Source: Bacteroidota bacterium
Lineage (GTDB): Bacteria > Bacteroidota > Bacteroidia > Bacteroidales > UBA1715
Direction: 5' to 3'
DNA length: 64,000 nucleotides
Assembly (NCBI GenBank): GCA_009786075.1
Contig: WQTX01000004.1
Span: forward strand, 1 to 64,000
Numbering within the stretch: position 1 is the stretch's first letter; the number at the start of each line of letters is the position of its first letter. The position numbers and the translations under genes were made by a program. The notes beneath the pieces are model-generated. The model ran no database searches. It worked only from the letters and a program-made list of their open reading frames with translations, and was not told the DNA's origin. Shown here piece by piece: positions 29,316-44,935 of the stretch.

Positions 29316-30416
29316 CTATTCATTGTTTATAGAAACAAGCCAATCTTGAAAAATTTTCTTAAATTCAAATCCATCTGTGTATGGCTTATAAAGGTATTTT
29401 ACCAAATCAAAAGGCATTTCATTTAACGAAAAATGCTTGAGAATTAAGCATCTTTTCCCCTGATTGTGCATTACTCCCAATTCATAAGTAACATTTGGAT
29501 TATAGTTTGCACCTTCTTCGGGCTCGTCAAATAATGCAATACCAAACTTACAACAGTAACATACTGCAATTGGATTGGAGACACTATCTTTTGTTATGTT
29601 CCATTCTGGCGCATCTGCACGAACACAATTATATCCACATCTTGCTAATTCTTCTTTGATAAAGTCTGAAAATTTTTCATTATTATCTCTAAACTTCATC
29701 ATAAGGAAAAAATTCTTTTCATACGGATATTTTTTAAGTTGTTTCTGCATAGTTTTTTTGTGCGTATCCAAATTGTGCAGTTTAAAATATTGTGTAGGCG
29801 ATACATATAATCTGTCTTCTCTTTCGTCTGTTTTGGTGTATTTTTCTATTAACATTTTGATTTTTCTATGCAAATCAGTAACATTAGAGCGATTTATAAT
29901 CACATTTCTGTAAATGTCGTTCTCTAAATATTCTTCAAAAACAGTTTCCGAACGGTCAATCCTTTCTTTAATCATATCGTCATCGTATCCATCTGCCTTC
30001 AAGCGTTTTTCAATAAGTCCCATATCTGTGTAAATATAAATAGGAACTACGAGAACAATGTCCGCATATAACGAGCATATAGTCCGTATGAGGTCTTGAT
30101 TTCGGACAATTACGAATGTACATTCGTATTTATCTATTGCTTTGTCAAGTTCCGATTTGAAAAAACCGTATCTATGTTTTTCTTTTCCATACTCGTACTG
30201 AAACAAATGGTCATTTTTGTCATCTTCTTTGAGTTTAAATTCTGTTTCAGACACAAATATTAAATCTGATTTTTTTGCCTCTTCAAAACGTCTTTTTTTA
30301 CGAGTTGTAAATTTATCAACTTTTGTTGCTGTATATCTGTGTTTATTTGCAACATAGTTTACTAAATCCGACTTTCCTGCACCAGCAGCACCATCTACTA
30401 AAAATAAAACTTTCAT
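29316..30416 (-). CDS. Fusion: guanylate-kinase-like P-loop domain plus TIR/nucleoside-deoxyribosyltransferase-like domain
   Basis: N-term VDGAAGAGKSDLV, TTRKKRRFEE; C-term FFLMMKFRDNNEKFSDFIKEELARCGYNCVRAD...NYNPNVTYELGVMHNQGKRCLILK. Confidence 0.75.
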   Translation of the reverse strand: MKVLFLVDGAAGAGKSDLVNYVANKHRYTATKVDKFTTRKKRRFEEAKKSDLIFVSETEFKLKEDDKNDHLFQYEYGKEKHRYGFFKSELDKAIDKYECTFVIVRNQDLIRTICSLYADIVLVVPIYIYTDMGLIEKRLKADGYDDDMIKERIDRSETVFEEYLENDIYRNVIINRSNVTDLHRKIKMLIEKYTKTDEREDRLYVSPTQYFKLHNLDTHKKTMQKQLKKYPYEKNFFLMMKFRDNNEKFSDFIKEELARCGYNCVRADAPEWNITKDSVSNPIAVCYCCKFGIALFDEPEEGANYNPNVTYELGVMHNQGKRCLILKHFSLNEMPFDLVKYLYKPYTDGFEFKKIFQDWLVSINNE

Positions 30417-34856: not shown

Positions 34857-35774
34857 TTATTTTTGTCCATTATTATCTTTCCAAAGTGGCTCATTCTGCC
34901 AATTATTGAAAAATCCCATTTTGTAAATCGGAATATCCGGATTATTCTTGAATAACGTAAGCAGTTTATTTTTGATTTCGTTGTTCGGATTTATGGCGTT
35001 GCAAAGGTAAATCATTGTAGAAATTACCACAAAAGGCTTTTTCTCTTGTACGGGTGTTACGCCAAACTGTAACCATTGATTTCGTGTTTTTTTCGGTAAA
35101 ACGGGGCGTTTCAAAACATCGCACCCAAACACTCGTGAGTGATGGGCAACTACATTGCGCAAGTAGGAAATGGCTGCAAACCAACTTGATAAATCATTTA
35201 TTGAATTTAGTCCAAATTCGTGAGTGATACGAGATTTTTGCGGTATTTCGGGTTTCAAGTTGCTGTATATTTTTGAAAGTGTGCCGAATGTTGCCACTTC
35301 AAAAATTATCCAAGCATCGGGATTTGAGTTCGGGTGTTTTTTGCGAAATTCTTTCACAAAATTCTCGTTATTTCTTGCAAATTCATTTTGCAAATCTGCC
35401 AAATAATTTTGGTGTTTGATTTTATCTACTACCAAATTATCGTTTAAATACCAAAGTCCGCCGTAAGCCTGCGACAAATGATAAATCAATTTGGTACGCA
35501 ATGCAATTTCGATAAATTCTATTGCTTTGAACAGAATAAGTCGCAACTCGCTATCAAAATCATAACGAGCAATAGCATCTTCAAAATAGGAATTGGGGGC
35601 GAAAATGTGATTTTTAGGGTCGGTTTGCATATCCCACCAATAACTTTTCAGACGAAAATAACTGATATGTCCCAAATAGAAAGCCGCCTTTTGTTCGTCT
35701 TTCATTAACATTCCCCGCGTTTTAAGCAGGGCGATTTGTTCCACGATTGTTTTTGATATTTTATTTGTAGTCAT
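34857..35774 (-). CDS. Abi family protein (Abi_2; AbiD/AbiF-like)
   Basis: [65 protein letters not shown]. Start revised to MTTNKIS (35774). Confidence 0.92.
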
Positions 35775-35868
35775 AAAAAAAATCAACCCGCCGACAGTTC
35801 TTATGGGTTGCACGACGGGTGTTGTTATCTTTAACAGGGCGAAGCCCATTTTGTTATCAATTCTTCCG
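35775..35868 (-). ncRNA. Structured RNA immediately upstream of the Abi gene (abiF-type ncRNA candidate)
   Basis: GGGCTTCGCCC hairpin, H-type pseudoknot CCCGUCG:CGGCGGG with CAAC:GUUG, then U8 abutting the abi ATG. Confidence 0.78.
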
Positions 35869-35872
35869 ATTA

Positions 35873-35902
35873 CAAAGATACAACTTGTTTTTGAATTAAC
35901 AA
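35873..35902 (-). promoter_or_regulatory. Bacteroidota-type promoter TTG-N19-TATCTTTG
   Basis: TTG at 35902-35900, 19-nt spacer, TATCTTTG at 35880-35873. Confidence 0.8.
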
Positions 35903-41007: not shown

Positions 41008-42018
41008 TTATAAACTTTCCATTTGTATAAGCAATTTATCGAAATCCGATTGATAGTTTTTGTCTTGAATAACGCGATATTTTTCAAATTCACTTTCGGC
41101 AAATGCTTTTGCAATTTCGTGAGTAACCGTGCCTACGCCATCGGAAAGTTGCGCATCGTTGAAATTAAGGAAAGCATCGAGTTTGTTTTTCCAATCTTCC
41201 ATTGTCATGGGAATAAACCGGCGAGCTTGACGGTTGGCATAATCCAAATACATGGTTACAATTTCGTTCAACTCCGAAATTTCTAAGTGCGACAAGTAAT
41301 TTTTTGCAATGCTTACATCGGTTTTGATAATTTTCCCTGCCGGTGCATTTTTCCAACTCGTAAGCCCCATATTTTCTTTTTTGGCATCGGCTCGCTGCAT
41401 AATCAATTCGGCAGCAGTGTGTTGGTGTATGGCAAAATGTAATTTATTTTGCACGTTGGCAAAAAAGTTTTTGGTGGTTGGGCTGCTTGTGTCGTAATCT
41501 ACTGCGGTGGCGTAAATATCGGTTATTTTCTGATAAAATTTCCGTTCACTTGCGCGAATTTCCTGTATTTCGGCAATAAGTTCGTCGAAATACTGCTTTG
41601 AAAAAACTTGGTCGTTAATCAGCCGGTTTTTGTCTAACACATAACCTTTTTTTGCAAATTGGCTCAAAACTCCGGTTGCCCATTGGCGAAATTGAATTGC
41701 CCGCTCGCTGTCGGTGCGATAACCCACGGCAATAATTGCCTCTAAACAGTAAAATTTTACGTTGTAATTTTTACCATCGGCGGCAGTTTGTCGGAAATTC
41801 CGACAAACTGAATTTTCACTCAATTCGCCGTCTGCAAAAATATTTTTTAAATGTTCCACAATCGTTGGACGGCTTTTTTGAAACAATTCAGCAATAGCCT
41901 CGCTTTGCAGCCACACATTTTGGTCTTCTATGCGCACGGCAATTCCGCCTTCGTCGTTTTGCCGAGTAAAAATCAAAAAATCGGCAGTTGAATTGCGTAT
42001 TTGTAGTTGTTTGTTCAT
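41008..42018 (-). CDS. RhuM family protein
   Basis: VWLQSEAIAELFQKSRPTIVEHLKNIFADGEL...YCLEAIIAVGYRTDSERAIQFRQWATGVLSQFAKKGYVLDKNRL. Confidence 0.93.
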   Translation of the reverse strand: MNKQLQIRNSTADFLIFTRQNDEGGIAVRIEDQNVWLQSEAIAELFQKSRPTIVEHLKNIFADGELSENSVCRNFRQTAADGKNYNVKFYCLEAIIAVGYRTDSERAIQFRQWATGVLSQFAKKGYVLDKNRLINDQVFSKQYFDELIAEIQEIRASERKFYQKITDIYATAVDYDTSSPTTKNFFANVQNKLHFAIHQHTAAELIMQRADAKKENMGLTSWKNAPAGKIIKTDVSIAKNYLSHLEISELNEIVTMYLDYANRQARRFIPMTMEDWKNKLDAFLNFNDAQLSDGVGTVTHEIAKAFAESEFEKYRVIQDKNYQSDFDKLLIQMESL

Positions 42019-44470: not shown

Positions 44471-44635
44471 ATGCCAACTTGTCGTTGTGGAAATTACACC
44501 AGAGTAGAAGGATTTGCATGTGATGATTGCAAGAGAAGAAATATTGAGGAGGGTGGCGGTTTCAAAGGATGTCTAAAGTTCGTTGGAATAGCACTTATAA
44601 TAATATTTATAGTATATTTGATAGCATCATGTTAA
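44471..44635 (+). CDS. 54-aa zinc-ribbon-like plus TM mini-protein
   Basis: MPTCRCGNYTRVEGFACDDCKRRNIEEGGGFKGCLKFVGIALIIIFIVYLIASC*; absent from ORF track. Confidence 0.6.
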   Translation: MPTCRCGNYTRVEGFACDDCKRRNIEEGGGFKGCLKFVGIALIIIFIVYLIASC

Positions 44636-44637
44636 TG

Positions 44638-44699
44638 GAGACCAGAGACCATTTCAAAAACGGGGCGAGTTTGAAAAGCCAGATGAGTAGAAAAAACTA
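44638..44699 (+). repeat. About 60-bp direct repeat, copy 1
   Basis: ccagagaccatttcaaaaacggggcgagtttgaaaagccagatgagtag, matches 44875-44935. Confidence 0.9.
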
Positions 44700-44852: not shown

Positions 44853-44874
44853 CCACACAAATCTAAAATATGAT

Positions 44875-44935
44875 GGAGCCAGAGACCATTTCAAAAACGG
44901 GGTGAGTTTGAAAAGTCAGATGAGTAGAGGAAACT
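44875..44935 (+). repeat. About 60-bp direct repeat, copy 2
   Basis: ccagagaccatttcaaaaacggggtgagtttgaaaagtcagatgagtag. Confidence 0.9.

Follow-up and report, generated by a model that had tools for sequence, protein, structure and literature searches.

A divergent AbiF-type RNA and its Abi_2 partner form a probable type III-like toxin–antitoxin module in a Bacteroidales genome

The principle of an RNA antitoxin paired with an AbiF protein is already known from RCd22/AbiF and PbAbiF. For RCd22/AbiFCd of C. difficile phage phi027, toxicity and neutralisation both in cis and in trans have been tested; RCd22 neutralises AbiFCd by direct binding, and stem mutations abolish neutralisation (PMC12373285). 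PbAbiF, from a Prevotellaceae bacterium, has been solved with its RNA, AbiFr (PDB 8VZ6; Zilberzwige-Tal et al. 2025, as cited in PMC12373285 and PMC12737573), and the 3′ bulge of that RNA is said to carry inhibitory nucleotides (PMC12737573). Both RNAs belong to the canonical class described by Rfam model RF03085.

The locus described here lies in the window, i.e. the whole stretch of DNA analysed (64,000 nt; positions 1 to 64,000 of contig WQTX01000004.1, assembly GCA_009786075.1), which comes from a draft genome of the Bacteroidales with an estimated contamination of 5.8%. A predicted RNA sits immediately 5′ of an abiF-like gene; we refer to its class as type B and to the RNAs beside most other AbiF homologues as type A, both labels having been coined in this analysis. 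The features are as follows.

35900–35902, minus strand: −33 element TTG of a Bacteroidota-type promoter, at the same position in nearly all relatives
35873–35880, minus strand: −7 element TATCTTTG, 19 nt after TTG, where nearly all relatives have it too
35775–35868, minus strand: predicted non-coding RNA of about 94 nt, its start placed by promoter spacing and its end by the U-tract
35837–35847, minus strand: 5′ hairpin 1, GGGCUUCGCCC (GGGC-UUC-GCCC), present in most type B relatives with varying letters
35821–35834, minus strand: conserved single-stranded linker UUAAAGAUAACAAC (alignment A2)
35786–35820, minus strand: hairpin 2, the abiF-like core and putative terminator stem (covariation, fold and 60.8 bits to model R1)
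35775–35782, minus strand: U8 terminator tract, directly abutting the start codon
34857–35774, minus strand: abiF-like gene of the Abi_2 family, 305 aa, ORF intact, HEPN motif RNVVAH at residues 206–211

Hairpin 2 comprises an 8-bp outer stem (ACCCGUCG/CGGCGGGU), a 1-nt bulge (U), a 3-bp inner stem (GCA/UGU) and a 12-nt loop (ACCCAUAAGAAC). The promoter (TTG-N19-TATCTTTG, 35902–35900 and 35880–35873), the GGGC-UUCG-like hairpin (35847–35837) and the second stem with its U8 (35820–35786 and 35782–35775) had been reported in a first-pass annotation and were all recovered, as was the observation that the U-tract runs right up to the abi ATG (35774–35772). The same annotation called the RNA unusually compact. 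Its Bacteroidales relatives are in fact shorter, with about 55–65 nt after the −7 box; the window RNA reaches about 94 nt because it carries an extra 5′ hairpin.

Read from its anatomy alone, the window has the arrangement of RNA, terminator and toxin gene behind one promoter. It shares with RCd22/AbiFCd the placing of the RNA right before an Abi_2 HEPN gene, a single promoter and an intervening terminator. However, RCd22 contains two canonical RF03085 motifs and a separate terminator, whereas in the window RNA the stem of a single divergent motif is itself the predicted terminator, and an unrelated 5′ hairpin is added. No tandem antitoxin repeats were found in the window RNA, which contains a single core by model R1 (a covariance model built from the type B hairpin). 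The logic of RNA antitoxin, terminator and downstream RNase toxin is also that of the type III systems ToxIN, AbiQ and CptIN, but the toxin of the window is a HEPN protein and not ToxN-like, and the RNA is a simple hairpin rather than a repeated pseudoknot.

The protein matches Pfam PF07751 (Abi_2) with 180 bits (curated cut-off 25.6) and PADLOC AbiD with an E value of 1.8e-69, and it is homologous to PbAbiF (PDB 8VZ6) across residues 12–299 (E value 7e-48). The HEPN RNxxxH residues R206, N207 and H211 are unchanged in 62/62 homologues; R206/H211 correspond to PbAbiF R210/H215 and AbiFCd R202/H207, mutation of which abolishes activity (PMC12373285). PbAbiF and the window protein share the same R..H catalytic pair, but the PbAbiF clade is accompanied by canonical RF03085 RNAs with a 6-nt 3′ bulge, while the window clade is separate, with other loop letters and no 3′ bulge. 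A relative 89% identical to PbAbiF (L020) has one RNA motif directly 5′ of its gene.

The source genome has three Abi_2 genes: the window gene (34857–35774), L019 (contig C136) and L023 (contig C11). The window gene and L019 are type B paralogues, 80% identical and each with its own RNA, and L023 belongs with the RNA-less proteins. Contamination is possible for C136, given its length of 5 kb.

The window sequence would not on its own prove an RNA gene. The promoter string by itself is not rare (TTG-N19-21-TAnnTTTG matches 19 times in the window; simulated sequences average 7.3 matches and reach 15 at most), and the folding energy alone is unremarkable, with just a moderate drop relative to shuffles (z −1.7 over the full RNA and −2.0 for hairpin 2). 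Rather, it is conservation and covariation in relatives that point to a real RNA. The same promoter, 5′ hairpin and linker stand upstream of the closest AbiF genes (65–88% identity; L019, L024–L029 and L031), and so do hairpin 2 and a U-tract that directly precedes the ATG as in the window. L028 belongs to the cultured Bacteroides luti DSM 26991. More distant members (L069–L071 and L073) keep the second hairpin, and the 5′ hairpin is missing in some. Altogether, a type B RNA lies immediately 5′ of an Abi_2 gene at 15 loci.

In a small set of 13 related sequences (alignment A1), the nested structure of hairpin 2 forms standard pairs in 95.8% of cells vs 85.4% in shuffles, a figure somewhat flattered because the structure was derived from the same sequences and the rows are related. 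Stronger evidence comes from two-sided changes at five nested pairs, one of which, in the inner stem, swaps A-U for U-A; from these we would read the pairing as maintained. When the structure was slid along the alignment as a control, pairing dropped to 26–39%. Hairpin 1 is 90% paired with weak covariation only, and L070 and L115 build it from different stem letters. The first-pass annotation had instead folded the RNA as an H-type pseudoknot, the form of a ToxI-type antitoxin, and CAAC is indeed complementary to GUUG in the single window sequence. Among the relatives, however, 28.8% of cells keep this pairing, which does not exceed the shuffles (30.0%), and there is no covariation; as drawn, G35787 would also have to pair in two helices at once, with 0 nt remaining for the last loop. 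We therefore ruled it out on covariation and geometry and consider a pseudoknotted antitoxin highly improbable, the nested fold being the one strongly supported by covariation.

An open reading frame of 330 aa from 35849 happens to run through the window RNA, as it would if this stretch encoded an N-terminal extension of the Abi protein, and a homologue on B. fragilis plasmid pBFO17_1 (L117) has its annotated start 5′ of its own abiF RNA, which therefore appears translated into an artificial N-terminal extension. Yet the leader is closed by stop codons in L019, L028, L070, L073 and L115, which excludes a coding leader in these relatives; in addition, the conserved start is the ATG at 35774 and changes within the leader are compensatory for RNA pairing. 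We give a coding role for this stretch almost no credence.

A covariance search with the Rfam abiF model (RF03085; membership cut-off 37 bits) returned no match to the window RNA even at E<=10, none anywhere in the genome of the window and none to the other type B hairpins adjoining their AbiF genes. The positive controls worked, with matches upstream of the AbiF genes L014, L020, L021, L035 and L037, and membership of the window RNA in RF03085 was ruled out by model score. Across the order, RF03085 scored above the cut-off in 17/393 genomes, and the model also detects copies in C. difficile phage phiC2 and in pBFO17_1. The earlier suggestion of an abiF RNA copy thus stands in part: architecture and position before an Abi_2 gene agree, but the sequence fails RF03085. 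Shared with the Rfam family are the outer stem, 1-nt 5′ bulge, 3-bp inner stem, 11–12-nt loop, U-tract and location directly 5′ of the Abi_2 gene; the 6-nt 3′ bulge of the canonical RNA (CAAAUC) is missing from the window RNA, and in alignment A1 the type B sequences have 0 nt between inner and outer stem on this side.

Type A RNAs (CCUGCC-A-CGCU-UCCCAUAAGAAC-AGCG-6 nt-GGCGGGU) have the same fold and loop type and retain the 6-nt 3′ bulge; type B RNAs have the 8-bp outer stem without it. One arm is shifted between subgroups in the MAFFT alignment of type A RNAs (A3), which was left out of the pair counts. Several RNAs are intermediate between canonical and type A, with RF03085 scores above the cut-off (L048, 42.6 bits; L065, 39.1 bits) or below it (L053, 34.2 bits; L060, 32.2 bits; L064, 31.5 bits), and for this reason canonical, type A and type B RNAs probably represent one diverging superfamily. 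At L046 (G368:C51), the loop of a type A RNA has been swapped naturally for GAGCCGAAAGGC with stems and 3′ bulge intact. L025 carries two antitoxin classes in tandem before one AbiF gene, a canonical RF03085 RNA lying about 250 nt upstream of a type B RNA (2658–2694 and 2947–2990). Type B RNAs, being outside Rfam 15 and without the canonical 3′ bulge, look like a new form of a known kind; the comparison behind this covered Rfam 15, and Zilberzwige-Tal et al. 2025 also built covariance models to capture diverged AbiF RNAs (AbiF5_iter3 and diverse_rna_xinsi, as named in PMC12804078).

RNA class follows protein clade. On a tree of 62 proteins, type B forms a single clade (support 100/99), 8VZ6 falls in the canonical clade, and the four RNA labels require 6 changes vs 31.8 in shuffles. 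Eight Abi_2 proteins without a recognisable RNA form a separate deep group (support 100/100). In the same 62-protein alignment, RNA-associated AbiF proteins read RNxxxHHxR and the deep RNA-less clade RNxxxHG (window residues 212 and 214); RNA-dependent members may be recognisable by this second H and the R.

Model R1 also recognised RNAs beside AbiF genes outside its training set, on a Prevotella nigrescens plasmid (60.5 bits) and a Chryseobacterium plasmid (56.5 bits), with E values of about 1e-17 to 1e-18; Chryseobacterium belongs to another class of Bacteroidota than the source of the window. About 790 genomes (393 from the order, 396 from the phylum) were searched motif-first with R1. Eleven matches reached 50 bits or more, and an AbiF gene, whether intact, contig-cut or decayed, lies immediately downstream of ten of them. 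Four of the eleven had not been used in training: L081, L086 and L120 are followed by AbiF, and L088 is not. Matches of 22–36 bits without AbiF (L091, L094, L098, L100, L101, L104, L121 and L122) were set aside as resembling ordinary terminators or chance hits. No relative was found in the viral contigs searched. In a genome of the same genus (L107), the gap between purB and yidD is about 50 bp, compared with about 2.4 kb in the window, where it holds a 246-aa ORF, a small ORF, the RNA and abiF; R1 finds no match at the empty site, and abiF is absent there too. On this comparison, we regard the RNA and abiF as an accessory module.

Superfamily RNAs with promoter and terminator remain beside internally deleted or truncated AbiF genes at L120, L124, L127 and L131, where the toxin gene appears to have been lost first and the RNA to have stayed. 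Such persistence fits an antitoxin role, as do the RNAs at L088, L090, L125 and L126, which likewise keep promoter and terminator and have no recognised AbiF. Orphan type A, type B or canonical RNAs were also seen at L088 (521–565 and 593–628), L090, L092, L095, L125, L126 and L128; no downstream AbiF was recognised at these loci, and most retain promoter and U-tract. Remnants are one possibility, solitary antitoxins that act in trans another. The orphan of L095 lies directly 5′ of a gene resembling HsdR by eye, that of L088 precedes a reading frame starting MTTQPEAILEE, and that of L128 precedes a gene whose start resembles RhuM.

These results bear on a rival reading, in which the hairpin is a pure attenuator that terminates transcription ahead of abiF without binding protein. 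The U8 and ATG do follow the hairpin directly, and the C. difficile RNA also works in cis by termination (PMC12373285). Nevertheless, the loop ACCCRUAAGAAC is strictly conserved in type B RNAs, which exceeds the needs of a terminator; the bulge position, the inner stem and its compensatory A-U to U-A exchange would be similarly superfluous. The tracking of protein clade by RNA class and the survival of RNAs beside decayed toxin genes argue against attenuation alone, and homologous RNAs neutralise in trans (PMC12373285). We consider a pure attenuator improbable; most likely, to judge from these comparisons, hairpin 2 serves as both terminator and antitoxin.

Our preferred reading, to which we assign a probability of about 0.8, is that the window locus is a type III-like AbiF toxin–antitoxin module with a divergent RNA. 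The pairing of an RNA antitoxin or attenuator with a HEPN Abi toxin, already suggested by the first-pass annotation, gains support from the Abi_2/AbiD identity, the homology to PbAbiF, the invariant R206/N207/H211 and a gene order matching the tested RCd22/AbiF (PMC12373285). In such a module, a single promoter would make the RNA and, through read-through, the toxin mRNA, as shown in C. difficile (PMC12373285). Hairpin 2 and U8 would terminate most transcripts, so that the RNA would far exceed the toxin mRNA, and rare read-through would yield the HEPN RNase. By analogy with the 8VZ6 homologue and RCd22, hairpin 2 would bind the AbiF dimer via its ACCCRUAAGAAC loop and bulge and block the HEPN RNase site. 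A shortage of RNA, for example during phage attack or transcription shut-off, would then free AbiF to cleave RNA and stop growth; toxicity is established for relatives and presumed for the window protein. The mode of inhibition may differ in type B because the canonical 3′ bulge is absent. As a tentative extension that we think doubtful as a whole, type B RNAs might constitute a distinct, undescribed AbiF antitoxin specificity class that has lost the 3′ bulge and blocks the HEPN site via the ACCCRUAAGAAC loop aided by the clade-specific 5′ hairpin and linker, RNA and toxin having co-diverged into non-cross-reacting pairs.

Other features of the window include tandem Rfam DUF805 RNAs (RF03081) at 44630–44697 and 44868–44934 on the plus strand (76.3 and 58.8 bits), a weaker copy of which (48.6 bits) is present on the contig of the paralogue (L019, 697–765). 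A RhuM-family gene (41008–42018, minus strand) strongly matches the PADLOC candidate defence family PDC-S05. The product of 29316–30416 (minus strand) has a guanylate-kinase-like N-terminus (22.2 bits, under the Pfam cut-off); the C-terminal domain fused to it resembles, by eye, TIR-like nucleotide-binding domains from defence genes.

Cas13 is considered a descendant of AbiF, and its guide RNA a descendant of the AbiF RNA (PMC12737573). The series from canonical RNAs through intermediates to a bulge-less, terminator-fused class, each with its own protein clade, would show which RNA features are dispensable and supplies test pairs for the evolution of RNA specificity. Moreover, RF03085 alone overlooks many Bacteroidota AbiF modules, leaving what appear to be lone toxin genes.
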